Positions 15,427 through 37,203 of a stretch of DNA of 46,094 nt are shown here, piece by piece. The notes under the pieces were generated by a model. It saw only the letters and a list, made by a program, of their open reading frames with translations, made no database searches and was not told the DNA's origin. Position numbers and translations under genes: made by a program. The stretch's first letter is position 1. Every line of letters begins with the position of its first letter. The stretch is from Magnetococcales bacterium WMHbinv6 (GTDB lineage: Bacteria; Pseudomonadota; Magnetococcia; Magnetococcales; Magnetaquicoccaceae): positions 1 to 46,094 of the forward strand of contig PDZV01000033.1 of the NCBI GenBank assembly GCA_002753135.1, read 5' to 3'.

Positions 15427-15486
15427 GGAGATTTGTCTCACTGCAAATTTATTGCCCGTTTCGTCATTTCAGGAAGGATTGTCGTC

Positions 15487-18400
15487 ATGTCAAAATCCGG
15501 TCGTGGCCGCTCCAACTCCGCCCGTTCGCAGGCCTCTGCTCGGTCGGCACTGCCAGCCAATACCGTCGCCGCCGCCATTCAGGAGGGGCTGCAACTGCAT
15601 CAGGCCGGGCAACTGCCCGCGGCGGAAGCCGTCTACAAGCGCATTCTGCAACAGGTTCCCAATCTGCCAGAGGCGCTGCATCTGCTTGGCTTTCTGCACC
15701 ACCAGCGCGGTGAAAATCAACAGGCCGCCGAGCTGATCGGCAAGGCGGTGGCCCAGCAGGGCAACAATCCGACCTTTCTCAACAACTACGGTATCGTACT
15801 GACCGCCCTGGGCCAAACCGATCAGGCCATCGCCGCCTATCGCCAGGCCATCGCCGCGCAACCTGATTTTTATATGGCTCTGGGCAATCTGGGTGGCATG
15901 CTGGCCGAACGCAACCAGCTCGACGAAGCCATCCTTTGCTACCAGAAAGCGCTGGCCGCCAAACCGGACAGCTGCGAAATTCTCAACAGCCTGGGCAACG
16001 CCCTGGTGCGCAGCCACAACCATGAGGCCGCCATCGCCGCCTACCAACGGGTGCTGCAACAACAACCCAACTATGCCGACGCCTATAACGGTCTGGCCAC
16101 TGTGATGCGCGAACAGGGCAAGCTGGAACAATCCATCGCCTACTACCAACAAGGTCTGGCCCTGCAACCCAACCATTACGGTCTCTACAACGGTTTGGGC
16201 TCCACCCTGCTGGTGCAGGGCAAACCGCTGGAGGCCATCGCCGCCTACCAGCAGGCCATCGCCCTCTATCCGGACCAGCCCAATGCCTACCATAACGTCG
16301 GCAACGTGATGCGCGATCTGGGTCGACTGGAGGAGGCGATCAACTATCTGCAAAAAGCCCTCTCACTCAACCAGAACCTTTACCAAACTTACAACAGCTT
16401 GGGCAACGTCTATCAGGAGCAGGGCAATCTGGAACAGGCGATCAGCTGTTACCAGAAATCGCTGGCCATCTACCCCAACGATACCGACACCCTCAGCAAT
16501 CTGGGTCTGATTTTGACCGACATCAACCGCTGGGATGACTCTCTGGCCTGCTATTACAAAGCGGCCACCATCGCCCCGGACAAGGTGACCCTGCATTGCG
16601 ACGTCCTCAACCAACTGCTGCATCTGGCCGAATGGGCGGAAATTCCCATCCGTTATCAGCACATGATGCAGGTGTTTCGCAGCGGTCGGGGTGAGGCCAG
16701 CCCCTTCGTCATGCTGGCCCTGCCCGCCACGGCCCAGGAACAAAAAGAGAATGCCGAGCGCTACATGCGCAACAAATATCCGGCCCGCGCCAATCTTGCC
16801 GCCGAGCGCCCGGCCCGGGCCACGGATCGGATCAAGGTGGGCTATTTTTCCTCCGATTTTCAGAACCATCCGGTGGCCTATCTCACCGCCGAACTCTTCG
16901 AGCTGCACGATCGCAGCCGTTTTGAAATCTATGCCTACTCTTTTGGTCCCGATGATGGCCGGGAGATGCGCCGCCGCATCATGGCCTCGGCTGACCATTT
17001 TATCGATCTGCGCCCGCTCACCCATCACGCCTCGGCGCAGCGCATTGTCGATGATGGCATCCATATCCTGATCGATCTCAACGGCTTCACCAAGCATGCC
17101 CGCCTGCAGGTGCTGGCCATGCACCCGGCACCGTTGCAGCTGACCTGGCTGGGCTATCTGGGCACCCTGGGGGCACCGTTTATCGATTATCTGCTCAGCG
17201 ACCATTTTATCACCCCGCCGGGCAGCGAAAACGATTACACGGAAAAACTGCTGCGCCTGCCGGAATGTTTTCAACCCAACGACCGGCAACGCAACATCAG
17301 CGAGACACCAACCCGGCAACAACGGGGATTGCCGGAGAAGGGCTTTCTTTTTGCCAGCTTCAACAAAGTCTACAAAATCAATCCCGACATTTTCTCGGTA
17401 TGGATGAACATTTTGCGCCGCACCCCCGATTCTCTGCTCTGGCTGGTGGCGGAAAATCAGCGAGTGGAAAGCAATCTGCGCCGCGAGGCGGCGGCACGCG
17501 GGGTGGATCCGGCCCGCATCTACTTTGTGCAAAAAATGGCCCTGGCCGACTATCTGGCCAACTATCGGCTGGTCGATCTGGTGTTGGACACCCACCCCTA
17601 CAACTCCGGCACCACCGCCAGCAACGCTTTGTGGGCCGGTTGTCCCATGTTGACCTGTGCCGGATCCACCTATGTCTCCCGACAGGCGGGCAGCCTGTTG
17701 CGCAACGTCGGCCTGGGTGAACTGGTCACCCATTCGATGGCCGAATATGAAGAGCTGGCCGTGGCGCTCTGCCACAATCCGGGACGACTGCAGACACTGC
17801 GCCAACAGATGCAGGCGCAGCTGTTGACCTCGCCGCTGTTTGATTCGCCGCGCTTTACCCGCCATCTGGAAAGCGCCTACCAGTTGATCTGGCAACGCCA
17901 TCTGCAGGGGTTGCCGCCGGACCATGTCTCTGTCCCGGCCCTGCCGCCGACTGACCAGCGGCCCGCTGCGGTTGCACCCTCGGCTGCCGTCGCGCCCCCG
18001 TCTGCCGCTGCTGCGCCTGCTGCGGTGGTCACCGCAGCCGCCCCGGCGGTTGCCCCCTCTCCCGTCGATCTGCTGCATCAGGAAATTCTGCTGCTGCAAC
18101 GACAAAACCGCCTGCCGGAGGCCATCGCCAGCTGTCGGAAACTGTTGACCCTGCAGGCAGACCACGCCGAAGCGTTGCACCTGCTCGGCCATCTCCATTT
18201 TCAGCTGGGACAGATGGCGGAGGCGGCAGAATGGATCGGGCGGGCAACACAGGCCCGCCCCGATCAACCCCTGTTCTGGCAAAATTTGGGCATCATTCAC
18301 TCCAACCAGGGCGAGGTGGAACAGGCGGTCGCCGCCTTCCGCCGCGTGTTGGCCCTGCAACCACAGCACCACGAAGCCCTGCACCATTTGGGCAACCTGC

Positions 18401-21400
18401 TGCGCATGCAAGGCAAGGTGCAGGAGGCCATCGCCTGCCTGCAACAGGCTTTGGCCATCCGACCCGATCTGTTTGAGGTCCACAACAGTCTGGGCAACCT
18501 GATGCTCTCGGTCGGACGTCCGCAAGAGGCCATTGCCTGCTATCGGCAGGCGGTCACCCTGCAGCCAAACCATCAAAATGCCTTCACCAACTTAGGCAAC
18601 GTGCTGCTCGATCAGGGGCAAATTGAAGAGGCCATCGCCTGTTACCAAAAAGCCCTGGCCATTCAACCCACCCTGTGCGAGGCCCACAACGGCATGGGCA
18701 ACGCCTTGAAAGAGGCGAAAAAAATTGACGAAGCCATCGCCTGTTTTCATCGTGCCATTCAGATCAATCCGAACCATGTCGCCTCATATCACAATCTGGG
18801 CGTCACCCTGCAGTTGCGTGGCGATCTGCAGGAGGCGGTCGACTGCTACCGCAAAGCCCTGGCCATTCAGCCGACTTCGCACGAAACCTATAATAATTTG
18901 GGCTCGGCCCTGGCCTCGCTGGCCCGCACCGATGAAGCCATCGCCTGTTACCACAAGGCGATTGAACTTTATCCCAACTTTTGCTCGGCCTACGGCAACA
19001 TCGGTATCGCCCTGCAGCGCGACGAACGGCTGGAAGAGGCGGTAAGCTACTACCGCAAAGCTCTGGCCATCCACCCGGATGATCGGGCCTCCCTGAGTAA
19101 TCTGGCCTTTGCCCTGCAGTTGATGGGTGATGTGGAGCAGTCGGTGGCCTGCTATCAGCAGGTACTCGACCGTTTTCCTGACGATCCGGAAGCACACGGC
19201 TCAGTGCTGCACCAAATGTTGCATATTTGCGACTGGCGCGACTTTCAGGGGCGTCTGGAGCGGATGATGGCCACTTTTCACGCCGGCAAGGGATCGATCA
19301 ACCCATTCATTCTGCTCTCTGTGCCGACCACGCCGGAAGAGGAGCTTGAGTGTGCCGTTCTCTCTTCCGACAACAAATATGGCATTCGGCGCAACATGGC
19401 CGCCGGGCGGGTCTACGACAAAACACCGCCACGCCTGAAGATCGGCTATTTTTCTTGTGACTATCAGGATCATGCCACCACCCATCTGATGGCCGAACTC
19501 TTTGAAATTCACGACCGGCAGCGGGTGGAGACCATCGCCTACTCTTACGGGCAGGATGACGGGCAGACCATGCGGCGGCGGATTATCGCCGCCAGCGATC
19601 AGTTTGTCGATCTGCGCCTGCTCTCGCACCAGGATGCCGCGCAACGTATTCTCGACGACGGGGTACATATTCTGGTGGAGATGAAAGGGTATACCAAAGA
19701 TTCCCGCCTGGAGGTGCCTGCCCTGCGTCCGGCCCCGATTCAGGTCTCCTGGCTTGGTTATCCGGGGACGGTGGGCGGTGATTTTATCGATTATGTTCTC
19801 TCCGATCCGTTTGTCACCCCACACGGCTACGAGTCGCACTTTACCGAAAAAATTGTCCGCCTGGACAGCTGCTATCAGCCCAACGACCGCAAACGGGCCA
19901 TCGCCCGCACCCCGACCCGCAAAGAGTGCGGCCTGCCGGAAGAGGGGTTTGTTTTTGTCTGCTTCAACAAAAACTACAAGATCAATCCGCCTGTCTTCGA
20001 CATCTGGATGCGCCTGCTCAAGCAGACACCGGGCAGCCTGCTGTGGCTGTTCGAGGCCAACCAATGGGTGGTTGACAACCTTCGTCGCGAAGCCCGCGCC
20101 CGTGGTGTGGACGATCAGCGGATCTATTTTGCCCCGAAAATGCCTGCTCCCCTGCATCTGGCCCGTTACCGGCTGGCCGATCTGGTGTTGGATACCTATC
20201 CCTACACCTCGCACACCACCGGCAGCGATGCGTTGTGGGCGGCGGCACCGATGGTTACCTATGCCGGACCCACCTTTGCCTCCCGCGTGGCGGGCAGTCT
20301 GCTCAGTTATGTGGGGCTGCCGGAGCTGGTCACCTTCAGCCTGGCCGATTATGAAGCGCTGGCTCTGGCCTTGGCCCATGATCCGCAACGGCTGGCAACG
20401 ATCAAAGCCAAACTGCAGCGCAATCTGCCCAACGCACCCCTTTTCGATACCCCACGCTTTGCCCGCAGCCTGGAAAAATCCTACGAAATCATGTGGGAAC
20501 GCTACCGTGCCGGTCTGGCCCCGGACCATATCGACGTGCGTGTGCCCGAGTTTCCAGCCGTGCTGATACCGCAACCGGTCCCCGGCACCGGCTATACACC
20601 GACCCCTGCCACCGCCGCCAAAGCCAGCAAACCGCTCCCGCCGACCCCACGCAGCAGCCCGGTGGCAAGCAAACCGTTCACCCCACCGCCTGCGGCGGTC
20701 GTTGCCCCCCCTGCCCCTCCGGCGCTTCCTCCGGTCAATACACCGTTGCCGGTACCACAAATGCTGGAACGGTACAACGAGGCGCTGAAAAGCAGCAACT
20801 GGGAAGAGGCTGCCCGCATGCTCGAACCGTTGGCCCAGTTAAACCCGGACAATCTGCAGGTGCAGCAACAGGCCTTCATCCTCTTCAAACGGTTGAATCA
20901 TCGCGAGCCGATGTTGCGTGCCGCCAGCCGGGTATTGGCCCTCAAAGCGGACCATTTTGTCGCCCATCAAGAGCTGATCGACGATTGCCGGGCCCGTCAG
21001 GATCGCTCAGGAGAGCTGGCGTTGCGCATCGCCTGGGCCAGCCGTCACCCCAAAACGGTGCCGACCGCCTTTCATCTGCAAGAGGTCTATATGGCCTTGT
21101 GCCTGTTGTTGCTGGCCCCTTTGGACCAGGAGACCGCCCGCCGGGTGGAGGAACTGCAACAACTGACCCGCACCATTCTGGCCGATGCACCGTTGCAGGA
21201 GGGAGAAGAGCTCTACCACAGCAGCCAATTTTATCGCGCCTCCATCGAGGCGGTAGAGATGCAGGCGGTGGTCAACCCCCTGCCGGCGATGGCGGTGCAA
21301 GAGCCCCTGCCTTTTGTTTCGGCCCAAGGCAAAGAGATGACCATCCAACAGGTGCAGGCCCTGGGCAAACGGCTCAACGCCGAGTTGATCTTCTACACCG

Positions 21401-23799
21401 CAGCCGACGCCAACTATATCCGCCAGCATGCCCGCCGCTTTGCCGCCGCAATTTTGCGCGCCTGCGATGTGCCCTGCCTGATCCTGATCCATGTCATCGG
21501 CGGCAGCGACAATCTGCCGGCATGGAGTCGGGAGATCGGTCTGGATCACGAGCGGATCCTCTATACCGGTGACCGTTTCGATCCGGCCAGCGTGCGGGCC
21601 ATCACCTGGAAAATCAACGAACCACAACCGATTCGCACCCCGCTGGTCTATTTTCAATCGGCCCGTTTTCTCCGCTTGGGTTATCTGCTGGAACAGCTGC
21701 AGCTGCCGGTGTTGGCCACCGATATCGATCAACTGCTGCAACGGGGTATTCGCGATTGGATGGATCGTTTTGCTGACCATGATGTGATTTTTTATGAGGT
21801 GTTGCGCAATCATAAAATTGCCGACCGCTTCATTGCCGGTCTGCTGCTGGTCTATCCCACGGCTGCCGGTCACCTGTTTGCCAACTTTTTCCGTTACTAC
21901 ATGGAGTGGGCCCTGCGTGACGCCGAACAGAAGGGCTACTGCGCCTATTTCATGGATCAGACCGCTCTGTTGCTGGCCCGTCACCATCTGCTGCACCAGC
22001 AGCAGGCCAGGCTGGGTTATTTTGATTTTTACGACATCAACGAGGATATGTACGGCAGTTACCACAACACGCCGTTCCGCTTTTTTACCCTCTATTCCGG
22101 TTTTGACATGGCATCGCTGCCGGAGGCGCTGCAGGATGCCTCGGCGCAGGTGGCCATCGCCCGTCCGCCCACCGTCGCCGAACAGTTTGCCCAAGCCAAC
22201 GCCATGCGCAACCAGAACAAGCCGGAAGCGGCCCTGGCCCTCTACGAACGACTGCTGGAGAGCGACCCGGCACATGCAGAGGCCATCATCCACACCGCCG
22301 GACTGCTCGATCAGCTGGGCAACACCCCGGCGGCGCTGCAGCGACTGCTGCAGGCCAAACGGCTGGCCCCAGAGCGCAAAGATTGGCCCGCCCAGATGCA
22401 ACCGGTGTTGTTGCATGCCATCGAGCTGTATAACACCGCCTTAAAAAACAACGCCTTGTCCCAGGCAGCCGAGCTGATCACGCCGCTGTCCGAACTCTAT
22501 CCAGACAACCGCAGCATGCAGGAACAGGCCTATATCCTGTTGGAAAAATTGCAACACCATGAAACCCTGCCTGCGGTTGCCGCCCGTCTGCTGGCCTTCA
22601 ATCCGACCCACTATGCGGCGCATCAACTTGTCATCGACGACTGCATTGCCCGTCAGGATCGGGCGGCAGAACGGGCCTGGCGCATGCGTCTGGCCAGCAG
22701 CGAACCGACCTCAATCCCGCCGGCTTTCCGCCTGCAGGAGATCTATATGGCCATCAGCTCCCTGCTGCTGACCCCCATCGAGCCGGCGCAGCTGGCCGAG
22801 GTTGAGGCAGGGCGGGCGCTGGCCAAACAGATCATGGCCAACCATCCGTTGCCGGAAGAGGATCCCCTCTATCGCGATACCCTGTTGTATGCCGTCTCCA
22901 TCGAGGCGATTAACACCCCCTGTCTGACCCAGCCGCTGCCCGCCACCACCCCGTGGCCTGCGTTGCAATTTGCCCAGTCGGAGGGCAAAAACATCGAGTT
23001 GAAAACCATCCGCAGCCGGATCAGCAAAAACAAAGTGGAGCTGATTTTTTATTGTGCTGCCGATCCGCTCTACGTCAAACGGCATGCGCGCCGTTATCTG
23101 CAGTCGCTGTTCGCGGCTTGTGAGGTGCCGTTTCTGGTCCTGATTCAGGTGATCGGTGGCAACGGTCAACTGCCTGCCCTGGCCGCCGAGGTGGGCATCC
23201 ACGACGAACGGCTGATCTGGGCCAGCGACAGCTTTGATCCAGCCAGCATCAAGGCCTACACCTGGCGCAACAGCGAACCCAAACCGATCCATTCGCCGCT
23301 GGTCTATTATCAATCGGCCCGTTTTCTCTCCCTGGGCAACCTGTTGACGCTCTTCAACCGACCGGTGATCACCACCGATATTGACCAACTGCTGCAACGG
23401 GGCATGCGCGATCTGCTCGACCGTTCTGCCGGACACGATGTGGTTTTTCACGAGCGACCGCGTGGCGTCAAACTGGCCGATCGGCTGATCGCCAACCTGC
23501 TGTTGGTCTATCCCAGCGAGGTGGGCCAGCTGTTTGCCCGCTTCCTGCATCACTATCTGGATTGGGCCATTCAGGATGCGGAACAACGGGGTTCCTACCC
23601 CTATTTTCTCGATCAGAGCGCTCTGGTGATGGCCCGGCAATATTTGTGGCAAATGAGCCAGCCCAAGCTGATTCCCTTTGAACGGATGGATATCAACACC
23701 GGCATGTTCGGCAGCTATCAGCCGAATGATTTTCGCTTTTTCTCCTTCTACTCCGGTTTTGATATCGACTCTTTGCCGAATCAGCAAGGGAAAGGTTAA
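15487..23799 (+). CDS. Giant four-module glycosyltransferase: (TPR-OGT)x2 plus two GT-A-like modules
   Basis: A protein of 2770 residues. Residues 28-367 hold about ten TPR units, followed by an O-GlcNAc-transferase/SPINDLY-type domain (about 448-835: 'VGYFSSDFQNHPVAYL', 'FNKVYKINP', 'NSGTTASNALWAGCP'). A Pro/Ala linker leads to eleven TPR units (860-1233) and a second such domain (1318-1683: 'IGYFSCDYQDHATTHL', 'FNKNYKINP', 'TSHTTGSDALWAAAP'). After another linker come two copies (1754-2218, 2229-2770) of a helical region plus a domain with 'AELIFYTAADANYI' or 'VELIFYCAADPLYV', and 'TDIDQLLQRG' near 2078 and 2630, a DxD-like site. The OGT domains transfer a sugar from a nucleotide donor to Ser/Thr of proteins held by the TPRs; the latter modules look GT-A-like (inference). 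No signal peptide is visible. ATG 15487 has AGGAAGGA upstream; the frame is open from 15433. Confidence 0.93.
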   Translation: MSKSGRGRSNSARSQASARSALPANTVAAAIQEGLQLHQAGQLPAAEAVYKRILQQVPNLPEALHLLGFLHHQRGENQQAAELIGKAVAQQGNNPTFLNNYGIVLTALGQTDQAIAAYRQAIAAQPDFYMALGNLGGMLAERNQLDEAILCYQKALAAKPDSCEILNSLGNALVRSHNHEAAIAAYQRVLQQQPNYADAYNGLATVMREQGKLEQSIAYYQQGLALQPNHYGLYNGLGSTLLVQGKPLEAIAAYQQAIALYPDQPNAYHNVGNVMRDLGRLEEAINYLQKALSLNQNLYQTYNSLGNVYQEQGNLEQAISCYQKSLAIYPNDTDTLSNLGLILTDINRWDDSLACYYKAATIAPDKVTLHCDVLNQLLHLAEWAEIPIRYQHMMQVFRSGRGEASPFVMLALPATAQEQKENAERYMRNKYPARANLAAERPARATDRIKVGYFSSDFQNHPVAYLTAELFELHDRSRFEIYAYSFGPDDGREMRRRIMASADHFIDLRPLTHHASAQRIVDDGIHILIDLNGFTKHARLQVLAMHPAPLQLTWLGYLGTLGAPFIDYLLSDHFITPPGSENDYTEKLLRLPECFQPNDRQRNISETPTRQQRGLPEKGFLFASFNKVYKINPDIFSVWMNILRRTPDSLLWLVAENQRVESNLRREAAARGVDPARIYFVQKMALADYLANYRLVDLVLDTHPYNSGTTASNALWAGCPMLTCAGSTYVSRQAGSLLRNVGLGELVTHSMAEYEELAVALCHNPGRLQTLRQQMQAQLLTSPLFDSPRFTRHLESAYQLIWQRHLQGLPPDHVSVPALPPTDQRPAAVAPSAAVAPPSAAAAPAAVVTAAAPAVAPSPVDLLHQEILLLQRQNRLPEAIASCRKLLTLQADHAEALHLLGHLHFQLGQMAEAAEWIGRATQARPDQPLFWQNLGIIHSNQGEVEQAVAAFRRVLALQPQHHEALHHLGNLLRMQGKVQEAIACLQQALAIRPDLFEVHNSLGNLMLSVGRPQEAIACYRQAVTLQPNHQNAFTNLGNVLLDQGQIEEAIACYQKALAIQPTLCEAHNGMGNALKEAKKIDEAIACFHRAIQINPNHVASYHNLGVTLQLRGDLQEAVDCYRKALAIQPTSHETYNNLGSALASLARTDEAIACYHKAIELYPNFCSAYGNIGIALQRDERLEEAVSYYRKALAIHPDDRASLSNLAFALQLMGDVEQSVACYQQVLDRFPDDPEAHGSVLHQMLHICDWRDFQGRLERMMATFHAGKGSINPFILLSVPTTPEEELECAVLSSDNKYGIRRNMAAGRVYDKTPPRLKIGYFSCDYQDHATTHLMAELFEIHDRQRVETIAYSYGQDDGQTMRRRIIAASDQFVDLRLLSHQDAAQRILDDGVHILVEMKGYTKDSRLEVPALRPAPIQVSWLGYPGTVGGDFIDYVLSDPFVTPHGYESHFTEKIVRLDSCYQPNDRKRAIARTPTRKECGLPEEGFVFVCFNKNYKINPPVFDIWMRLLKQTPGSLLWLFEANQWVVDNLRREARARGVDDQRIYFAPKMPAPLHLARYRLADLVLDTYPYTSHTTGSDALWAAAPMVTYAGPTFASRVAGSLLSYVGLPELVTFSLADYEALALALAHDPQRLATIKAKLQRNLPNAPLFDTPRFARSLEKSYEIMWERYRAGLAPDHIDVRVPEFPAVLIPQPVPGTGYTPTPATAAKASKPLPPTPRSSPVASKPFTPPPAAVVAPPAPPALPPVNTPLPVPQMLERYNEALKSSNWEEAARMLEPLAQLNPDNLQVQQQAFILFKRLNHREPMLRAASRVLALKADHFVAHQELIDDCRARQDRSGELALRIAWASRHPKTVPTAFHLQEVYMALCLLLLAPLDQETARRVEELQQLTRTILADAPLQEGEELYHSSQFYRASIEAVEMQAVVNPLPAMAVQEPLPFVSAQGKEMTIQQVQALGKRLNAELIFYTAADANYIRQHARRFAAAILRACDVPCLILIHVIGGSDNLPAWSREIGLDHERILYTGDRFDPASVRAITWKINEPQPIRTPLVYFQSARFLRLGYLLEQLQLPVLATDIDQLLQRGIRDWMDRFADHDVIFYEVLRNHKIADRFIAGLLLVYPTAAGHLFANFFRYYMEWALRDAEQKGYCAYFMDQTALLLARHHLLHQQQARLGYFDFYDINEDMYGSYHNTPFRFFTLYSGFDMASLPEALQDASAQVAIARPPTVAEQFAQANAMRNQNKPEAALALYERLLESDPAHAEAIIHTAGLLDQLGNTPAALQRLLQAKRLAPERKDWPAQMQPVLLHAIELYNTALKNNALSQAAELITPLSELYPDNRSMQEQAYILLEKLQHHETLPAVAARLLAFNPTHYAAHQLVIDDCIARQDRAAERAWRMRLASSEPTSIPPAFRLQEIYMAISSLLLTPIEPAQLAEVEAGRALAKQIMANHPLPEEDPLYRDTLLYAVSIEAINTPCLTQPLPATTPWPALQFAQSEGKNIELKTIRSRISKNKVELIFYCAADPLYVKRHARRYLQSLFAACEVPFLVLIQVIGGNGQLPALAAEVGIHDERLIWASDSFDPASIKAYTWRNSEPKPIHSPLVYYQSARFLSLGNLLTLFNRPVITTDIDQLLQRGMRDLLDRSAGHDVVFHERPRGVKLADRLIANLLLVYPSEVGQLFARFLHHYLDWAIQDAEQRGSYPYFLDQSALVMARQYLWQMSQPKLIPFERMDINTGMFGSYQPNDFRFFSFYSGFDIDSLPNQQGKG

Positions 23800-23804
23800 G
23801 GGCG

Positions 23805-25298
23805 ATGGATATTGGCGCAGAGTTGGGTTTGCCGGAGTTTTTGAAAACCGATGCGGTCCCCATCGAATTGAACTTTTATGGTGCGGCCAAAATGGTGGCT
23901 GACCGGCTGGGGATCAACAATCCGCCGGTCAGTTATGTCAGTTGGATGCACGGCTGGCGCTACGACCTGATCCGTGCCGATCAGTGGGCCTGCGATGCCC
24001 ATATCGGTCTGCCGGGCCATCCTGATGGCAAATTTGTCATACCCATCCAGCGGCGGCGGCCCTTTCTGGTCTCCAACAGAAAACTCGAACGAATGTTGCA
24101 GGAGGCTGGCTACGACGACAGCCGCGCCGTCGGTCTGCCTTTCACCTATGTGGAACGGGATCCCAGCGTGCAGCGGATGCCCGGTTCGCTGCTGGTGATG
24201 CCCTCGCATGTGTTGATCAACATGCCGGGTCGGGCCAACGAAATTGAATATCTGGAGTATATCCGCACCATTGCCCCCGCCTTCAAACGGGTGGTCTTCT
24301 GCATCAATCTGGCCTGCCTGGCCAACGGCATGTGGCTCGACAATCTGAAAAAATATGGTTTCGACTATATTTTTGGTGCCGGAATGATGGATCAGAATGC
24401 CCTGTTTCGCATGCGCAGAATTTTTGACAGCTTTGAATATATGACCTCCAACGGCATCGGTTCACACCATATCTATGCCGGTCTGTGTGGCGTCAAGGTC
24501 TCGCTGGCCGGTCCGCTCGACAACTGCCGCTGGGACATGTTCAAAAATGAACCGGCCTGGCAGGATCCGGTGGAACGGGAAAAATTGATCCACCACGCCA
24601 CCATGTATCAGCACGATCAGGTGCGCCAACTCTATCCCTGGCTCTATGTCGAACCACACCACGGGGTCAACTGCCTGGAGTGGTCCCAGGAAGAGACCGG
24701 CTTGCACCATAAAGTCTCCTTCGAGGAGTTGGCGATACTCTTCGGCTGGCGGCAACGCCCGGGGACGGCGGAGGTGCAGCTGCTGCCCTACCTGATTGGC
24801 TGCGATGAGCGCGGTCAGATTCCAGAAATGGTGCAACATCTGCATAACGTGACCTACCATCCCGCCACCCTGACCGTCACCCTGTTGCAACTGCTCAACG
24901 CCAACCGTCTGCGTCCGGCCTATATTCTGGCCATGCTGCTCTTCAAGCGGCAAAACCAGCACGCTGCGGTTGCCTTTGCCCTGAGTGTCGGCGGTATTCT
25001 CTTCCGCAATCCCAGCGAGATGGAGAACGGTCTGCAATGTTTGCAACCTCTCCTGGCCGAACTGCCGCCGCCGCAACAGAGCCAATTTTTGTTTACCATC
25101 GTCCGTCCCATCCTGATACCGCTGCTGGCCAACGCCATCGGGCAGGCCAATGAGGCGCTGCTGCAACAACTGTTGGAGATCGGCAACAGAGTGTTGCCCG
25201 CACAGGTGGCGGCAGAACCGGCAGATGTGCTGCAACAGGCCCGTCTGCTGCTGGAGCGGGTGCAAAGGCTGCTGCCCCCCAGCCCGGAAACAGCCTGA
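23805..25298 (+). CDS. Unrecognised 497-residue glycosylation-locus protein (paralogue 1)
   Basis: I do not recognise this family. The protein starts 'MDIGAELGLPEFLK', has no signal peptide or membrane helix, and falls into two parts. Residues 1-350 hold 'SWMHGWRYDL', 'RMPGSLLVMPSHVLI', 'FCINLACLANGMW', 'YGFDYIFGAGMMDQNALF' and 'FEYMTSNGIGSH', then 'YAGLCGVKVSLAGPLD'. The last two resemble the donor-binding half of GT-B glycosyltransferases found in capsule and sialic-acid loci; this is a weak impression. Residues 358-470 form a helical module ('NRLRPAYILAMLL', 'FALSVGGILF') shared with two other island proteins. The gene starts five bases after the giant glycosyltransferase and its stop is one base before the FAD-NeuB fusion, so all three are probably one operon. 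A paralogue of identical length lies at 31644-33137. Confidence 0.85.
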   Translation: MDIGAELGLPEFLKTDAVPIELNFYGAAKMVADRLGINNPPVSYVSWMHGWRYDLIRADQWACDAHIGLPGHPDGKFVIPIQRRRPFLVSNRKLERMLQEAGYDDSRAVGLPFTYVERDPSVQRMPGSLLVMPSHVLINMPGRANEIEYLEYIRTIAPAFKRVVFCINLACLANGMWLDNLKKYGFDYIFGAGMMDQNALFRMRRIFDSFEYMTSNGIGSHHIYAGLCGVKVSLAGPLDNCRWDMFKNEPAWQDPVEREKLIHHATMYQHDQVRQLYPWLYVEPHHGVNCLEWSQEETGLHHKVSFEELAILFGWRQRPGTAEVQLLPYLIGCDERGQIPEMVQHLHNVTYHPATLTVTLLQLLNANRLRPAYILAMLLFKRQNQHAAVAFALSVGGILFRNPSEMENGLQCLQPLLAELPPPQQSQFLFTIVRPILIPLLANAIGQANEALLQQLLEIGNRVLPAQVAAEPADVLQQARLLLERVQRLLPPSPETA

Positions 25299-25299
25299 C

Positions 25300-27684
25300 A
25301 TGGCCAAGCAAGCAATTATTCTGGGTGCCGGCCCCACCGGTCTGGTTCTGGCCTGGAAGCTGCTCGAAAACGGCTGGCAGGTCGATCTCTACGACAAAAA
25401 CCCACGGGTCGGCGGCATGTGCCAAACCTGGCCCTGGGGTGAATTTCTCGTTGATGTGGGACCGCATATTTTTCATACCCCGGAGGCCACCCTGGCCGCT
25501 TTCTGGGAAAAAGAGTTTGGCGATCTGTTCGTCAAGGGGGAGTTTCGCTGCAAGAACGTGCAGGGAGAACAATTCGACCAGTTCTATGATTATCCCATCT
25601 CCTGGGAAGGGATCTCCCATTTTGCGCCAGAGATCAAAAAACGGATTATCGATGAGTTGGAACATCGCAATCCAGAAGAGAAAAAACGGGCCACCACCTA
25701 CCGGGAATACATGAATGCCGAGGTGGGCCCCACCCTGCGCGAGATGTTTTTTGAACGCTATCCGCAAAAAATATGGGGCATTGCCACCGACCAGATGAGC
25801 GCCATCTGGGCCCCGAAACGGATTGAATTCCGGCAAAAAATCACCCCCTTCTACCATCAGCAGTGGAACGCCGTCGGCAAATATGGCACCGGCTGCATTT
25901 TTGAACGGATTCGGGAAAAAATCGAACACTTAGGCGGTCGCTGCCATCTGCAACAGAGCGTGCAGGCCATTGAGGTGCAGGAAAATCGCCTGCAGTGCAT
26001 CCGTTTCGCCAACGGACAACTCCGGCAGATCGGCACCGAGGAGGTGGTGGTCTCCACCCTGCCGATCACCCTCACCGCTCAACTGCTCGGGCAGCAGAGT
26101 GCGTTGCGTTTTCGCGGCATCTGCTCCCTCTTTTTTGCCTACAACACCCCGACCATTTTGCCGGAGGGGTGCCACTGGCTCTATTATGATTCGCCACGCC
26201 TGCTTTTTAACCGCATCACCGAAGCCAAAAAAATGGCCCCGGCGGTCGCCCCCGCTGACAAAACGTTTCTGACCGCCGAAATCTGCTACGGCGATGACGA
26301 TCCGCTGCTGGCCACACCGCCCCAACAGCTGCTTGATCAGGTAGCCGCCCAGATTGAAATGACCGGTCTGGCCCCCCGCTCTCTGTTGCTGGACCAGGCG
26401 ATACACTGGGAGCCGCATGTCTACCCCTTGCAACAGCTCGGTTTTCAGGAAGAGCTGGCCCGCACCCGTGCCGCCATCAGCCGCGTGCGCAACCTTTTTT
26501 CCATCGGAGCCGGCGGGGATTTTTTTTACGCCGACGCCCAGGTGCTGTTTCACAAAGCGTTCGATCTGGCCGACACCCTCTGCCAGAAAGAGTCCTCGCT
26601 TGCCCAGGTGCTGCGCAAACCGCCCCGCGTCACCCTCAACAAAACGGTCACCCTGGGGCAAACGCGAATCGGCGATGAACAACGCGCCTACATCATCGCC
26701 GAAGCCGGGCTCAACCATAACGGCAGTCTGGCCATCGCCAAACAGCTGGTCGATCAGGCCAAAGAGGCCGGGTGCGACGCGGTCAAATTTCAGACCTATA
26801 CCCCGCACAGCCGCATTTCCGCCAAGGTCAAAAGCAGTCGCTACGCCGAACAGATTATCGGCCTGGAAGAGAACACCTTTGACATGTTCGCCCGTCTGGC
26901 CATGCCCTTCAGCGAACAGAAAGAGCTGTTCGACTACGCCCGGCAGGCGGGCATCGAAATTTTTTCCACCCCGTTCGATTTTGCCAGCGTCGATTTTCTC
27001 GAATCGCTCGGCGTGGCCCTCTATAAAATTGCCTCCATGGATCTGGTCAACCTGCCGCTGATCGACACCGTCGCCCGCACTGGCAAACCGATGATTCTCT
27101 CTACCGGCATGTCCACCCTTGGTCAGATTGAAGAGGCGGTGGAGACGGTGGCCAGTGCTGGCAACCCCAACCTGATTCTTTTGCACTGCAACTCCGCCTA
27201 TCCGTCCGCCCCCGGGGAGATGAATCTGCGTGTCATTCAGACGCTTAAAACGAGCTTTCAGATTCCGGTCGGCCTCTCCGACCACACCTTTGGCCTGATC
27301 ACCTCCCACACCGCCATCGTGCTGGGGGCCAACGTCATCGAACGCCATTTCACCCTGGACCGGATGTTGGAAGGGCCGGACCATATTCTCTCTTCTGAGC
27401 CATGGGAGATGAAAGAGCTGGTCAAAATCAGCCATTTGATCCCCTCCCTGCTCGGTTCGCCGGTCAAGCGCATTCAGCCCACCGAGTATGACACCATCAA
27501 CGCCCAGCGCAAATCGCTTTACGCCGCCCGCGACCTTGCCGTCGGCGAAACCTTGACCCGTGAGATGATCACCATCAAAGGTCCAGGCGGCGGTCTGTTG
27601 CCCCGCTACCTGGAGATAATCGTTGGCCGTACCGTGCGCCAGGCGGTCGAGGCCGACTATCCGATTACCTGGGAGAGCATCTGA
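25300..27684 (+). CDS. neuB: Fusion of FAD-dependent oxidoreductase and NeuB-type nonulosonate synthase
   Basis: A protein of 794 residues with two enzymes in one chain. Residues 1-440 are an FAD/NAD(P)-binding oxidoreductase of the amine-oxidase/UDP-galactopyranose-mutase type: 'GAGPTGLVLAWKL' (9-21), 'NPRVGGMCQTW', 'DVGPHIFHT', and near the end 'FSIGAGGDFFYADAQVL'. Residues 448-794 are a sialic-acid-type synthase, which joins phosphoenolpyruvate to an amino-hexose: 'AEAGLNHNGS' near 467, 'AVKFQTYTPHSR', 'STPFDFASV', 'STGMSTLGQIEEA', 'LHCNSAYPSAP', 'GLSDHTFGL' and a C-terminal SAF (antifreeze-like) domain with 'ARDLAVGETLT'. No in-frame Met lies in the junction, so the synthase cannot easily be made alone. 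The ATG at 25300 follows the preceding stop by one base. The oxidoreductase may act on the sugar or on the product; its substrate is unknown. Confidence 0.9.
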   Translation: MAKQAIILGAGPTGLVLAWKLLENGWQVDLYDKNPRVGGMCQTWPWGEFLVDVGPHIFHTPEATLAAFWEKEFGDLFVKGEFRCKNVQGEQFDQFYDYPISWEGISHFAPEIKKRIIDELEHRNPEEKKRATTYREYMNAEVGPTLREMFFERYPQKIWGIATDQMSAIWAPKRIEFRQKITPFYHQQWNAVGKYGTGCIFERIREKIEHLGGRCHLQQSVQAIEVQENRLQCIRFANGQLRQIGTEEVVVSTLPITLTAQLLGQQSALRFRGICSLFFAYNTPTILPEGCHWLYYDSPRLLFNRITEAKKMAPAVAPADKTFLTAEICYGDDDPLLATPPQQLLDQVAAQIEMTGLAPRSLLLDQAIHWEPHVYPLQQLGFQEELARTRAAISRVRNLFSIGAGGDFFYADAQVLFHKAFDLADTLCQKESSLAQVLRKPPRVTLNKTVTLGQTRIGDEQRAYIIAEAGLNHNGSLAIAKQLVDQAKEAGCDAVKFQTYTPHSRISAKVKSSRYAEQIIGLEENTFDMFARLAMPFSEQKELFDYARQAGIEIFSTPFDFASVDFLESLGVALYKIASMDLVNLPLIDTVARTGKPMILSTGMSTLGQIEEAVETVASAGNPNLILLHCNSAYPSAPGEMNLRVIQTLKTSFQIPVGLSDHTFGLITSHTAIVLGANVIERHFTLDRMLEGPDHILSSEPWEMKELVKISHLIPSLLGSPVKRIQPTEYDTINAQRKSLYAARDLAVGETLTREMITIKGPGGGLLPRYLEIIVGRTVRQAVEADYPITWESI

Positions 27685-27690
27685 GCCACC

Positions 27691-28386
27691 ATGAACCTTG
27701 TCACCGTCATACCCGCCCGGGGCGGCAGCAAAAGCATTCCGCTGAAAAATATCCGCCTGCTGCACGGGCGTCCCCTGATCGACTATTCGATCCGCTACTC
27801 GCTGGCCTGTTCGCTGGTGCAGCATACCGTTGTCTCCACCGACTGCGAACAAATTGCCGCCATCGCCCGCCACTCCGGGGCCGAGGTGCCCTTTTTGCGC
27901 CCAGCTGAACATGCCCAGGATTTGACCCCCGACTTTCCGGTTTTTCGCCACGCCCTGCTGGCCCTGGAAGAGTTCTATCAGGAAAAGATCGATCTGCTGC
28001 TGCTGTTGCGCCCCACCTCGCCGTTGCGCCCGCCTGGTTTGATCGAACGGGCCGTTGCCCTGCTGCAAGCCCATCCAGAGGCCAGCTCGGTGCGCAGCGT
28101 CGCCGTGGCCAAAGAGCATCCCTATCGGCAATGGCAGACCGATGGTCCCTATATGCGTGCGGCCGAAGAGAGGGTATTTGAACCCTATAACCTGCCGCGC
28201 CAGCTGTTGCCGCTGCGCTATTTTCAGACCGGCGATCTGGAGATGATGCGACGGCAGACGCTGCTGGATGGCTCCATCTCCGGCCCCCGCGTGTTGCCTC
28301 TGCGCATCGACCACGAAGAGATGGTCGATATTGACCACGAAAGCGACCTGCAGCGTGCCGAACGGAAAATCGATGCCCGCCGTTGA
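27691..28386 (+). CDS. neuA: CMP-nonulosonate (acylneuraminate-type) cytidylyltransferase
   Basis: A 231-residue enzyme that activates a sialic-type acid with CTP to give the CMP-sugar. The family nucleotide-binding motif 'IPARGGSKSIPLKN' is at residues 7-20, 'RPTSPLRPP' lies near 110, and 'DIDHESDLQRAE' near the C-terminus supplies metal-binding acidic residues. It starts six bases after the synthase fusion and overlaps the following reductase gene by 14 bases, so it most likely activates the product of that synthase. A second, clearly different cytidylyltransferase (PseF-type) is at 37200-37898. Whether the sugar is neuraminate, legionaminate or another isomer cannot be told. Confidence 0.9.
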   Translation: MNLVTVIPARGGSKSIPLKNIRLLHGRPLIDYSIRYSLACSLVQHTVVSTDCEQIAAIARHSGAEVPFLRPAEHAQDLTPDFPVFRHALLALEEFYQEKIDLLLLLRPTSPLRPPGLIERAVALLQAHPEASSVRSVAVAKEHPYRQWQTDGPYMRAAEERVFEPYNLPRQLLPLRYFQTGDLEMMRRQTLLDGSISGPRVLPLRIDHEEMVDIDHESDLQRAERKIDARR

Positions 28387-30590: not shown

Positions 30591-31637
<1,047 letters not shown>

Positions 31638-31643
31638 AGCAGC

Positions 31644-33137
31644 CTACCCACTTTTTCCCTGCCACAATTGCCCGATCCGTGCCGCCTGCGCCAGGCTTGC
31701 GCCAGGCGGTGTGGCGGACAGGCGCTGCTGCAACGGAGGATCGACCAGCAGAGCCAGCTTGACCAACGGCCCGGCCAGCGTGCCATTCTGCTGATCAACC
31801 ACCGTCTGCAGCCAGGTGAGCAGCTGCGGCAAGGCAATGTGGCTGCGGAAGGTGGCCAACGGTTCGGCGGGCAACGCGGCAAGCAAACCCGGCAGACTCT
31901 GCATCCCCCTGGCCACCTGCTCCGGCTGATTAAAAAGCAGCCCGCCCAGAGCCAGGGCAAAGGCGATGGCCACATGTTCCACTCCCTGATTGCGCAGCAA
32001 CACCGCAAGAATATAGGCGGCACGCAAACGGGATTCGGCCAGCAGCTGTACCGTGGCCGCAATGCGTTCCGTTACCGGATCTGTCGCTTGCTGCAGATGG
32101 CGCAACAAGCCATCAATATCGTTGGCCGTATCCAGCCGCCGGATGCAATCAAGCAGCGACTCCTCGGCCAGCAACTGCTCGACAGGCCAGTTAAAAATCT
32201 CTGCCAGGGCACGAAATGAAACGCGATTATCATAACCGGTCTCCTGCCGCGCCCACGGCACACAAGGCTCTGCCTGTTCCGGTGCCACGTAGAGCCAGGG
32301 CCATTTGGCGCGCAAGACATCGTGTTGCAAATTGGCGTGGGCAAAGGCAATCCGTTGTCGCCGCTGCGGATCCTTCCACTCCGGCTCGTTGCGGAACAGC
32401 TCTGGATGAAAATAGTCCAACGGCCCGGACAAAGAGACTTTCACCCCGCACAAGCCGGCATAGACCACATGCGAACCGATGCCATTGCTGGTCATATATT
32501 CAAAACTGTCAAAGATGCGCCGCATGCGAATCAGCGCATTCAAATCCATCAGACCGGCACCCAACACGTAGTCAAAACCGTATTTTTCGATGTTTTCTAT
32601 CCACATGTTGTTGACAACACAGGAGAGGTTGACACAGAACACCACCCGGCTGAAACGATGGGCAATGGAACGAATATATTCCAGATACTCCCGCTCATCC
32701 GAGCGGGCATCCATGCCGATCAACACATGGGTGGGCATCACCAGCAAAGAGCCGGGGATGCGGATAGACTCCGGATTGGGATCGACATAGACAAAAGGGA
32801 GCCCCACCGCCCGGGTATCGGGATAACCATTGGCCTGCAACAGCGCCTCATACTCTTTGACCGCCACCAGATAGGGACGGCGCTGTTGGGCCGTGATGGT
32901 AAACTGCAGCTCATCTTTGCCACGCACCCCCATATGGTGATCGCGGGCCAACTGGTCGGGATAGACTATTTTTTCCGGTCGCCAGCCATGAATCCAGCTC
33001 AAATGGGATAACGGCGGCAGCTTTTTCAAACCCAGTTTGTCGGCCACCAACTGGGCCGCCCCGTAATAGTTCATCTCGTACACCGGGTCAGGATTTTTCC
33101 GAAATACCGGTAGGCCCAACTGTTGTGAAATTTCCAT
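31644..33137 (-). CDS. Unrecognised 497-residue glycosylation-locus protein (paralogue 2)
   Basis: A paralogue of the protein at 23805-25298, with exactly the same length when ATG 33137 is used. That start also aligns 'MEISQQLGLPVF' with 'MDIGAELGLPEF'; the frame is open to a GTG at 33152. Shared blocks include 'WIHGWRPEKI', 'IRIPGSLLVMPTHVLIGMD', 'YGFDYVLGAGLMDLNALI', 'FEYMTSNGIGSH' and 'YAGLCGVKVSLSGPLD'. The C-terminal module (360-470: 'SRLRAAYILAVLL', 'FALALGGLLF') is shared too. The family is unknown to me; a sugar-transfer role is suggested only by neighbours and by a GT-B-like flavour of the 'SNGIGSH...GVKVSLSGP' region. It is transcribed against pseB, six bases apart, and lies alone on its strand. 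Confidence 0.85.
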   Translation of the reverse strand: MEISQQLGLPVFRKNPDPVYEMNYYGAAQLVADKLGLKKLPPLSHLSWIHGWRPEKIVYPDQLARDHHMGVRGKDELQFTITAQQRRPYLVAVKEYEALLQANGYPDTRAVGLPFVYVDPNPESIRIPGSLLVMPTHVLIGMDARSDEREYLEYIRSIAHRFSRVVFCVNLSCVVNNMWIENIEKYGFDYVLGAGLMDLNALIRMRRIFDSFEYMTSNGIGSHVVYAGLCGVKVSLSGPLDYFHPELFRNEPEWKDPQRRQRIAFAHANLQHDVLRAKWPWLYVAPEQAEPCVPWARQETGYDNRVSFRALAEIFNWPVEQLLAEESLLDCIRRLDTANDIDGLLRHLQQATDPVTERIAATVQLLAESRLRAAYILAVLLRNQGVEHVAIAFALALGGLLFNQPEQVARGMQSLPGLLAALPAEPLATFRSHIALPQLLTWLQTVVDQQNGTLAGPLVKLALLVDPPLQQRLSATPPGASLAQAARIGQLWQGKSG

Positions 33138-33338
33138 TCCCTGCCTCAACACACACCTTGTTCTTCAGTCATCCCCAACCACTCACCATATGCCCTCTGC
33201 ATCCGACCCCTTGGGCGTGTCCCTGGGGCGGGCAGCAGATCGCCTGGCATGATACCGTCAATACACGCCGCGAAAAAGGGTTGCCAAGCCATGCTGCCAG
33301 AGCAGGCCGCGCCAGTAATCGGTGTTGCAAGTTTCTTG

Positions 33339-34599: not shown

Positions 34600-35475
34600 A
34601 TGGAAAAACTCCTGATCACTGGTGCAGCCGGTTTGTTGGGCAGTTCGCTTGCTCCCTTTCTGGCACAATTGGGTTATACCGTTATCCGGCATGGCCACAC
34701 CTCCTCCCCGGTGGACGTGCGCTTTGACCTGAGCGATAGCACCGCCACCCTGGCCGCTTTGCGTACACTGCAACCGGATGTGATCCTCCATCTGGCAGCA
34801 CTGACCAACGTTGAACTGTGCGAAGAGCAACCGCAACAGGCCTATCTGGGCAATGTGCGGGGCGTTGAAAACCTCTGCCAATGGATCAGCCAACAGCAGC
34901 AGCCCTGTTTTTTGCTCCACATCTCCACCGATCATGTGTATGACGGTCCCGGCCCCCACAGCGAAGAGCATGTCTGCCTGAGCAACACCTACGCTTTTTC
35001 CAAATATACCGCCGAACAGGTGGCGGCCCGGGTTCCCGCAACCATCCTGCGCACCAACTTTTTTGGCCGCAGCCAGGCGCAAAAACGACAGAGCTTCAGC
35101 GATTGGATTGTCAACACCCTGCGTGCCGGAGAGGCGCTCAACGCAGTGACCGATATTCTCTTTTCGCCCCTCTCCATCCCCACGCTGGTCGAACAGATCG
35201 CCCTGGCCGTGCAGCACAAAAAAGTCGGTCTGTTCAACCTGGGCAGCCACGAGGGTTTTTCCAAGGCCGATTTTATCCTGCAACTGGCGGATCTGCTTGA
35301 GCTGGACAGACAACGCATCTGTCTGATCCGCGCGGCAGAACTGCCGCAAAAAACCTATCGGCCCAAAGATATGCGGATGGATCTGAGCCGCTACGAAGCG
35401 GCCTTTGCCACCACGTTACCCACCCTGAGCAGCGAACTGCAACGCATCAAGGAGCAATATCATGTTCGTTCCTGA
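34600..35475 (+). CDS. RmlD-like sugar-nucleotide reductase (SDR)
   Basis: A 291-residue extended SDR protein of the RmlD (dTDP-4-dehydrorhamnose reductase) type. The NAD(P) site 'GAAGLLG' is at residues 8-14, 'ISTDHVYDG' at 108-116 and the catalytic pair in 'YAFSK' is Tyr131 and Lys135. Its C-terminal half lacks other rhamnose-pathway neighbours (no rmlA, rmlB or rmlC here), so it more likely reduces a keto group of a nonulosonate precursor or a related deoxy sugar. Its stop overlaps the following synthase start by 14 bases, and AAGGAG within its last codons serves as that gene's ribosome-binding site. Confidence 0.85.
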   Translation: MEKLLITGAAGLLGSSLAPFLAQLGYTVIRHGHTSSPVDVRFDLSDSTATLAALRTLQPDVILHLAALTNVELCEEQPQQAYLGNVRGVENLCQWISQQQQPCFLLHISTDHVYDGPGPHSEEHVCLSNTYAFSKYTAEQVAARVPATILRTNFFGRSQAQKRQSFSDWIVNTLRAGEALNAVTDILFSPLSIPTLVEQIALAVQHKKVGLFNLGSHEGFSKADFILQLADLLELDRQRICLIRAAELPQKTYRPKDMRMDLSRYEAAFATTLPTLSSELQRIKEQYHVRS

Positions 35476-36550
35476 CAGAGAACTCACTATCGGCAACAAA
35501 ACCATCGGCCTGCACCACCCCACCTTTTTTGTCGCCGATATTGCCGCCAACCACGATGGCGATCTGGCCCGCGCCAAAGAGTTGATCCATCTGGCAGCCG
35601 AAGCGGGTGCCGACGCGGCCAAATTTCAACATTTCCGTGCCGATACCATCGTCAGCGATTATGGTTTCAAATCGCTGGGCTCCCAACTTTCGCACCAGGC
35701 CAAATGGCCCAAACCGGTGGCCGAAATTTATCGGGACGCCGAACTCAACCCGGAGTGGCTGGCGGCGCTGCAAACCTGCTGCCAGGAGGCGGGTATCGTT
35801 TTTTTCAGCAGCCCCTACGATTTTGATCTGGTCGATCGTATCGATCCCTATGTACCTGCTTACAAAATCGGCTCCGGGGACATTACCTGGCTGGAAATTA
35901 TCGAGCAGATGGCCGCCAAGGGCAAACCCTGCCTGATCGCCAGCGGAGCCTCCACGCTCGACGATGTCGATCGGGCGGTGCAAACGCTGCTCCGTCACAC
36001 CAGTAAAGTGGCCCTGATGCAGTGCAACACCAACTATACCGCCAGTCTGGAAAATCTCCGCCATATCCATCTGAATGTTCTCAAAACCTTCCGCACCCTC
36101 TACCCGGAGATGCTCCTCGGTTTGAGTGATCACACCCCCGGCCACGCCACCGTACTCGGTGCCATCGCCCTGGAGGCGCGGATTATCGAAAAACATTTTA
36201 CCGATGACACCCGCCGGCCCGGCCCGGATCATGCCTTTTCCATGGATCCGCAAAGCTGGCGCGAAATGGTCGACCGCAGCCGGGAGCTGGAAGCGGCACT
36301 CGGCAGCAGCGTCAAAATGATCGCCGACAATGAACGGGATACCGCCGTCCTGCAACGGCGCAGCATTCGCGCTGGCCGCGACCTGCCGGCTGGCACCATC
36401 CTGGAACGGAACCATCTGACCCCTTTGCGTCCTTGTCCTGCCTCGGCCATCGCGCCGCACCACCTCCCGGAGGTGGTTGGCAAACAGTTGACCCGATCCT
36501 TGCGCGCCGGAGAGCATATTCAGTGGAGCGACATCAAATCGGCATCGTGA
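35462..36550 (+). CDS. neuB: Second NeuB-family nonulosonic acid synthase
   Basis: A 362-residue sialic-acid-type synthase, without the fused oxidoreductase of the first copy. Marker segments are 'ADIAANHDGDLARAKELI' (27-44), 'AAKFQHFRADTIVSDYG', 'SSPYDFDLVDRI', 'KIGSGDITWLE', 'ASGASTLDDVD', 'GLSDHTPGHA' and 'EKHFTDDTRRPGPDHAFS', followed by a C-terminal SAF domain ('IRAGRDLPAGTILE'). The extra 'SDYGFKSLGSQLSHQAKW' insertion after the first motif is typical of a separate branch from the fused synthase, so the two copies likely take different substrates. It has a strong AAGGAG seven bases before its ATG and overlaps the glycosyltransferase gene by 28 bases. Confidence 0.92.
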   Translation: MFVPDRELTIGNKTIGLHHPTFFVADIAANHDGDLARAKELIHLAAEAGADAAKFQHFRADTIVSDYGFKSLGSQLSHQAKWPKPVAEIYRDAELNPEWLAALQTCCQEAGIVFFSSPYDFDLVDRIDPYVPAYKIGSGDITWLEIIEQMAAKGKPCLIASGASTLDDVDRAVQTLLRHTSKVALMQCNTNYTASLENLRHIHLNVLKTFRTLYPEMLLGLSDHTPGHATVLGAIALEARIIEKHFTDDTRRPGPDHAFSMDPQSWREMVDRSRELEAALGSSVKMIADNERDTAVLQRRSIRAGRDLPAGTILERNHLTPLRPCPASAIAPHHLPEVVGKQLTRSLRAGEHIQWSDIKSAS

Positions 36551-37203
36551 TTCCCGCCTACAACGAGGAACAGAGCATTCTCCAGGTGATTGAAAAAATC
36601 AGCCGCTTTGGTCTGCCCATCGTCGTCAACGATGCCTCGGTCGACCAGACGGCAGCCATTGCCCGCAACGCGGGGGCTGAGGTGGTCACACATGCCAGCA
36701 ATCAGGGCTACGATGCGGCCCTCAACAGCGGCTTTGCCCGGGCAGAGGCGCTCGGCTGCCAATGGGTGATCACCATCGATGCCGATGGCCAACACCCCCC
36801 GGAACTGCTGCAAACCTTCATCGACCATCTGCAGGCCGGGGCCGATCTGGTGGCCGGTATCCGCAACGAACAGCAACGGTTGGCCGAATGGCTGTTCAGC
36901 CTTTTCACCCGCTGGCGCTATGGCCTGGCCGACCCGCTGTGCGGTATGAAAGGGTATCAGATGAGCCTCTACCGCCAACTGGGCCATTTTGACGCCTATC
37001 AATCGATCGGCACCGAACTGCTGCTCTTTGCCCTGCATAATGGCAGGCGGTGCGTTCAGGTGCCGGTCAACTCCCGCAAACGGGTCGGCGTCTCCCGCTT
37101 CGGGCGTGCCTTGCTCGGCAATTACCGCATTTTGCGCGCCATGTTGCTCGCCCTGGTCACTATTCGTACCCTGCCAACCCCGTCACAGGATCGTTCATCA
37201 TGA
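36523..37203 (+). CDS. Family 2 glycosyltransferase
   Basis: A 226-residue GT-A enzyme similar to dolichol/polyprenol-phosphate sugar transferases. It has 'IVIPAYNEEQSIL' (8-20), 'VVNDASVDQTAAIA' and the metal-binding DAD at 86-88 in 'ITIDADGQHPPEL', then 'DPLCGMKGYQ'. No membrane helices follow the catalytic domain, so it appears soluble or peripheral. I chose GTG 36523, which has GGAGAG eight bases upstream and lies inside the synthase gene; the open frame extends to 36433. It ends with an ATGA overlap to the cytidylyltransferase gene. It may add a sugar to a lipid carrier or to the glycan in the same pathway. Confidence 0.88.
   Translation: MERHQIGIVIPAYNEEQSILQVIEKISRFGLPIVVNDASVDQTAAIARNAGAEVVTHASNQGYDAALNSGFARAEALGCQWVITIDADGQHPPELLQTFIDHLQAGADLVAGIRNEQQRLAEWLFSLFTRWRYGLADPLCGMKGYQMSLYRQLGHFDAYQSIGTELLLFALHNGRRCVQVPVNSRKRVGVSRFGRALLGNYRILRAMLLALVTIRTLPTPSQDRSS

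Follow-up and report, generated by a model that had tools for sequence, protein, structure and literature searches.

The GT41 enzymes that we found in papers and structures each carry one catalytic domain. In human OGT, XcOGT and SPY, a TPR array is followed by a two-part GT41 region, and FlmG of Caulobacter (PMC7591256), a 596-aa protein with one GT domain, combines TPRs with a GT-B part and is linked to a NeuB-type gene. In the streptococcal serine-rich-repeat adhesin pathway (Gtf1/2, Gtf3, dGT1, GalT2 and Gly; PMC5207161, PMC5063993), a Ser-rich repeat protein is O-glycosylated stepwise and then secreted. One enzyme of that pathway, dGT1, has two GT domains in one chain, one of them a GT-A domain with a helical binding domain.

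Here, we describe a locus of Magnetococcales bacterium WMHbinv6 (GCA_002753135.1), a magnetotactic-type bacterium of the genus Ca. Magnetaquicoccus in the Magnetococcales. The window analyzed is the whole 46,094-nucleotide stretch PDZV01000033.1, which is one entire contig of the 3.84-Mb genome. It encodes a 2,770-aa protein that resembles human OGT, XcOGT and SPY in its TPR-GT41 plan and in its equivalents of D554, H558 and K842, whereas chains of its type have two to four catalytic units of at least two pocket classes as well as GT-A modules. It likewise shares the TPR and GT-B plan and the NeuB-type link with FlmG, but has two GT41 and two GT-A domains. The closest working analogue is the Fap1 pathway of streptococci, in which dGT1 combines two domains (PMC5207161, PMC5063993), although that pathway is made up mostly of separate proteins, uses accessory Sec, starts with Gtf1/2 enzymes that are not GT41, and has two GT domains in its hybrid chain. 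The window's Pfam matches include no Gtf1/Gtf2-type start enzyme and no accessory Sec gene. Our preferred reading, in which our confidence is evenly balanced, is that the 2,770-aa protein is a soluble single-chain O-glycosylation enzyme with four catalytic domains, and that its likeliest acceptors would be giant ALTTAQ proteins before their export.

A four-module protein encoded by one intact gene

The reading frame (15487–23799, forward strand) is uninterrupted from the ATG at 15487 to the stop codon ending at 23799, as confirmed by a translation check. The frame itself begins upstream with a TTG at 15433, and an AGGA-like ribosome site lies about 10 nt 5' of the ATG. Pfam, iterated HMMs and comparison with six congeners define the order TPR array, GT41 unit, TPR array, GT41 unit, and then two modules in which a helical part (TPR/helical in the second) precedes a GT-A domain. 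The initial annotation had proposed two TPR-OGT units in tandem followed by two copies of a different module, each with a TDID motif, and the domain searches bear out this layout. PF13844 (Glyco_transf_41) matches four stretches that correspond to two complete domains, with a score of 623.9 bits (cut-off 25), and about 20 TPRs are recognized by Pfam models. TPR array 1 covers residues 29–377 (15571–16617) and is followed by GT41 unit 1 (residues 378–808; 16618–17910); TPR array 2 runs from about residue 880 to 1244 (18124–19218), and GT41 unit 2 from 1245 to 1676 (19219–20514). The other module was delimited by the HMMs at residues 1838–2190 (module 3) and 2390–2742 (module 4; 22654–23712), with the TDID motifs at 21718–21729 and 23374–23385. 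The two GT41 units are 55% identical to each other and modules 3 and 4 are 48% identical, so each pair represents an old duplication.

An assembly or frameshift artefact is ruled out. No stop or frameshift separates the modules, the gene is present in six other assemblies, and dN/dS is well below 1 in all catalytic modules. The four-module protein is real and conserved, and it combines known kinds of enzyme in a new architecture.

The two GT41 units belong to different pocket classes

A GT41 profile search hits human OGT (E = 9e-127) and SPY (E about 1e-96), and the residues of the GT41 units were mapped onto human OGT by profile alignment using the numbering of PMC9715652. Equivalents of D554, H558 and K842 are present in every GT41 unit, including both units of the window protein. 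Three further positions, 901, 920 and 925, which we take to contact the nucleotide in human OGT, separate the units into classes. Unit 1 and the other first units ("type A") have Y, G and N at these positions (H901Y, H920G and D925N), while unit 2 and the other last units ("type B") have H, H and D like human OGT, the pocket of unit 2 comprising H901, H920, T921, T922 and D925. The type-A pocket is constant across all ten type-A units. The three positions are also variable in other GT41 proteins of the compared set. The additional middle units found in two congeners (G001 and G002) have H901, G920, S921 and D925. The motif differences quoted earlier for the two OGT domains were also located: NSGTT lies within NSGTTASN at 17602–17625 in unit 1 and TSHTT within TSHTTGSD at 20206–20229 in unit 2, and the segments QNHP and QDHA near the entry motif fall within 16855–16872 and 19459–19476, respectively.

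A maximum-likelihood tree of the units from seven species placed all first units in one clade (100/99) and all last units in another (100/99), so the split between them predates these species and their order has been kept. The difference between the two OGT domains that the initial annotation had pointed out is therefore one of distinct classes that stay separate across the genus. Because the clades are well supported and three pocket positions differ, units 1 and 2 are probably not redundant, and their nucleotide pockets suggest that they probably use different donors or sites. A paralogous gene with three GT41 units, described below, has a second unit that groups with the first class (100/99) and a first unit that groups weakly with the last class (82/68). 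In a Magnetococcales genome of another family (G020; L092 and L093), chains with four and three GT41 units mix Y901/G920/G925 units, a pocket change similar to that of unit 1, with H901/H920/D925 units.

Modules 3 and 4 are putative GT-A transferases

Module 3 was modeled with AlphaFold2 from a ten-sequence alignment (pLDDT 82, pTM 0.80). The model has an N-terminal part of TPR-like helices (20752–21366), with a TPR chain among its structure matches, followed by a GT-A domain (residues 1961–2190; 21367–22056). Comparison with PDB structures using VIA-align gave Z scores of 12.5–13.7 to GT-A enzymes over model residues 209–438, including yeast MNT2 with Mn/GDP-mannose (Z 13.7, 3.8 Å, 225 residues) and alpha-1,3-galactosyltransferase (Z 13.4–13.6). 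LgtC was among the matches of a Foldseek search with the same model. The best Foldseek matches to OGT had TM-scores near 0.2 and were left unused. The TDID sequence follows a strand of the modeled fold and belongs to a DxD motif of the form [TS]D[IV]D, the first D being conserved in 15 of 16 homologues and the second in all 16. In module 4, which is preceded by a TPR/helical stretch (22177–22653), the DxD is intact as well.

In fold, modules 3 and 4 thus resemble DxD transferases of the GT-A type such as MNT2, alpha-1,3-GalT, LgtC and PF03407 (Z about 13), but their GT-A part has no Pfam match and the module 3 sequence has no match in the PDB. The earlier proposal that these modules are glycosyltransferase-like is supported by the structure model and the conserved DxD. 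PF03407 (Nucleotid_trans) gave no match in the window's own modules and a weak one in a single stand-alone module-3 homologue (E = 0.049, 14 bits against a cut-off of 22). Module 3 is best read as a putative GT-A transferase with a DxD site whose sequence family has yet to be described. GT6 entries make up most of the VIA-align lists, and modules 3 and 4 were therefore given no single GT family; retaining chemistry is only suggested for module 3 by its structural neighbors. A purely non-enzymatic TPR nature of modules 3 and 4 is unsupported given the GT-A structure match. Stand-alone homologues of module 3 (L061, L062, L063, L064, L065 and L067) are 570–738 aa long, some with a methyltransferase-like N-terminal part.

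Distribution and selection

Orthologues of the gene were found in six independently assembled congeners, Ca. Magnetaquicoccus inordinatus UR-1 and five Magnetococcales MAGs, and a DNA scan with a narrower module-3 alignment detected the same six only. The four-module order, a search for which had been recommended, recurs in part. Two GT41 units with two module-3 copies are found in three species (the source genome, G004 and G006), while the count varies elsewhere between two and four GT41 units and one or two GT-A modules: two plus one in G003 and G005, three plus one in G002, and four plus one in G001, whose protein reaches 3,767 aa. The three-GT41 paralogue is present in the source genome (contig C29; 2,460 aa), G003 and G004, and partially in G005. 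Other families of the Magnetococcales have chains with several GT41 units as well (four and three units in G020, two each in G018 and G033), and among the matches listed from a 200-genome sample of the phylum, all GT41 frames longer than 1,400 aa belong to Magnetococcales.

Selection was assessed among the source genome, G004 and G006 with a simple Nei-Gojobori estimate, in which synonymous sites are partly saturated; dN/dS was 0.06–0.12 for the GT41 units, 0.16–0.21 for modules 3 and 4, and up to about 0.4 for the fast-evolving Pro/Ala-rich linker between them (20515–20751), where the source genome is 44–48% identical to the two congeners. These low values indicate that all four catalytic modules are maintained by purifying selection, with unit 1 conserved about as strongly as unit 2 (dN/dS about 0.1).

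Neighboring genes for nonulosonic acid and dTDP-rhamnose

Downstream of the gene, the predicted products point to a nonulosonic acid island of the pseudaminic type. The genes given here with coordinates are on the forward strand unless stated otherwise. A gene for a conserved 497-aa protein (23805–25298) is followed by one for an FAD/NAD oxidoreductase-like protein fused to NeuB, the nonulosonic acid synthase (25150–27684; homologues start at residue 51), and both also follow the orthologues in other congeners. Further along lie genes for a PseF-like CMP-sugar synthetase (27691–28386; below the NCBIfam cut-off), an aldo/keto reductase, the UDP-GlcNAc 4,6-dehydratase PseB (30636–31637; 552 bits, cut-off 408), a second NeuB-type synthase (35462–36550) and the pseudaminic acid cytidylyltransferase PseF (37050–37898; 308 bits, cut-off 206). 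The oxidoreductase-NeuB fusion is 87–88% identical in two congeners and is uncommon-looking for nonulosonic acid synthesis. The 497-aa protein has a paralogue encoded on the reverse strand (31644–33152). This pair of about 500 aa has no Pfam or NCBIfam match, shares the conserved motif SNGIGSHxxYAGLCGVKVSLxGP, and is possibly another kind of transferase; the structure model of the 497-aa member (pLDDT 52) was too poor for fold comparison.

The three-GT41 paralogue of the source genome (contig C29, 50425–57807; L049:12425–19807) directly follows rmlA-C-D-B, all above their NCBIfam cut-offs, and this arrangement is conserved in G003 (L056), which suggests a dTDP-rhamnose-linked sister system. 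With the window gene beside pseudaminic-type genes and the paralogue beside rml, different multi-GT41 genes go with different donor cassettes.

The position of the window gene beside PseB, PseF and NeuB genes also fits a role like that of FlmG, in which the TPRs would bind flagellins and the GT41 units would add a pseudaminic-type acid before flagellar export, a reading that we regard as somewhat unlikely. Nonulosonic acid is usually transferred to flagellin by a Maf-type protein (PF01973), and every genome tested has one. The source genome has nine Flagellin_N matches, but no flagellin gene lies on the contigs of its three GT41 loci. Caulobacter FlmG, a TPR and GT-B protein, depends on NeuB and uses its TPR part to bind flagellin (PMC7591256). 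According to a review, all 14 flagellins of MO-1, a marine magnetotactic coccus, are glycosylated, and another magnetotactic bacterium has OGT-annotated genes in its flagellar clusters (PMC7175107). On the other hand, FlmG itself has a single GT domain and no GT-A modules. Given these Maf-type proteins and the lack of linkage to GT41 genes, flagellin is the lesser candidate acceptor, though it is the chief rival to the ALTTAQ giants.

Giant Ser/Thr-rich proteins near GT41 genes

The acceptors favored by our preferred reading, the ALTTAQ giants (PF20080), are built from an 8-residue unit such as LTTTQVSG and contain 21–39% Ser+Thr. Of the 18 genomes of the source genome's family, 16 have ALTTAQ proteins, and 23 genomes of other Magnetococcales have none. 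None of the papers searched deals with ALTTAQ repeats or with GT41 proteins in tandem. The source genome has at least six giant ALTTAQ reading frames of about 1,000 to more than 5,600 aa, rich in Leu, Ser, Thr and Gln, on contigs C29 (26931–46172; L099, L049), C40, C62, C28 and C76; one in G004 lies at C1:11805–31052 (L114/L115).

Several GT41 genes lie close to such giants. The window gene's orthologue in G001 and the gene for a 3,382-aa Ser/Thr-rich ALTTAQ protein are divergent and lie about 1.2 kb apart, and the same contig encodes a NeuB 73% identical to that of the window. This is the one of the six congener orthologues for which an ALTTAQ neighbor was seen, several of the contigs being short. 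Giants of about 5,400 aa in the source genome and about 6,400 aa in G004 adjoin the rml genes and the three-GT41 gene. In a sister genus (G007, G009, G011 and G014; also G008 and G010), a giant and a T1SS ABC transporter are encoded with a GT41 gene close by, HlyD being present in most of these loci and the giants reaching 36–39% Ser+Thr. The GT41 gene of these loci belongs to a different paralogue, which has a C-terminal extension of its own. Only one ALTTAQ frame was found in the 3.8 Mb of G009, and it lies 4.5 kb from GT41. The row in G014 closes with a separate module-3 gene, 15 bp away from the GT41 gene; judged by its predicted products, this row is a set of the window gene's fused parts, here unfused, beside a secretion system and a Ser/Thr-rich giant. 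Since the genes of these relatives stand beside giant Ser/Thr-rich repeat proteins, the window enzyme probably covers such a giant with short glycans within the cell, ahead of export. The C-terminus of the sister-genus paralogue (L088:5892–9713 and orthologues in L089, L090, L091 and L087) is conserved over about 450 aa, has no Pfam match and is unlike module 3.

The window contig itself has no ALTTAQ gene and no T1SS gene, and most ALTTAQ giants of the source genome are without a GT41 neighbor. An island for nonulosonic acid that lacks any repeat protein would also fit another surface or cytosolic protein as the acceptor, the proximity to ALTTAQ genes then reflecting no more than shared surface-glycan islands. 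We consider this improbable, as the association of GT41 genes with Ser/Thr-rich repeats or ABC exporters recurs in other families, where both the repeats and the ABC genes differ: in G018, another Ser/Thr-rich repeat protein (35%) is divergent from the two-GT41 gene, and in G020, two ABC genes lie directly upstream of the three-GT41 gene.

Proposed role of the 2,770-aa protein

The architecture, folds, residue conservation, selection and gene context described above are observations. Multi-enzyme protein O-glycosylation is the likely role of the protein. In the preferred reading, its two TPR superhelices would bind an acceptor that is unfolded and rich in Ser/Thr, the two GT41 domains would place the first sugars on Ser/Thr, and the two DxD GT-A modules would probably extend them. 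The acceptor would be a giant ALTTAQ protein with LTTTQxxG octapeptides, modified in the cytosol and then exported, and one step could plausibly draw on the nonulosonic acid made by the adjacent genes as its donor. A true assembly line that adds several sugars to one acceptor, as the initial annotation envisaged, and an ALTTAQ acceptor would both be reasonable; catalysis, donors, the order of steps and the acceptor are inferred.

Not every module need be catalytic. Unit 1 or one of the GT-A copies could act as a binding scaffold, with only one or two sugars added, and the alteration of three pocket residues in unit 1 and the faster evolution of the GT-A copies relative to the GT41 units are in line with this. 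However, unit 1 is constrained like unit 2, keeps D554, H558 and K842, and has a pocket that is fixed in ten of ten type-A units and resembled by the H901Y/H920G change in G020, and both GT-A copies have an intact DxD, which makes a scaffold role quite doubtful.

As a broader and more tentative extension of the assembly-line reading, possible rather than probable, the Magnetococcales might have evolved megaenzymes whose domains, at most four GT41 and two GT-A per chain, fall into different donor classes. Before export of octapeptide-repeat proteins of 3,000–6,400 aa, these enzymes would assemble a defined heteroglycan at thousands of their Ser/Thr sites, each locus being tuned by a sugar-nucleotide cassette of its own, of the pseudaminic type for the window gene and for dTDP-rhamnose in the case of the three-GT41 paralogue.

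If the modules act in turn, the protein would come as a ready-made enzyme for multi-step protein O-glycosylation, useful for glycoengineering, and giant Ser/Thr-rich repeat proteins are its likely substrate class. Within one genus, GT41 units have been duplicated, kept in a fixed order and diverged at nucleotide-site residues. Because such diverged, ordered units lie in one chain, the choice of donor by GT41 enzymes may be examined between natural neighbors.
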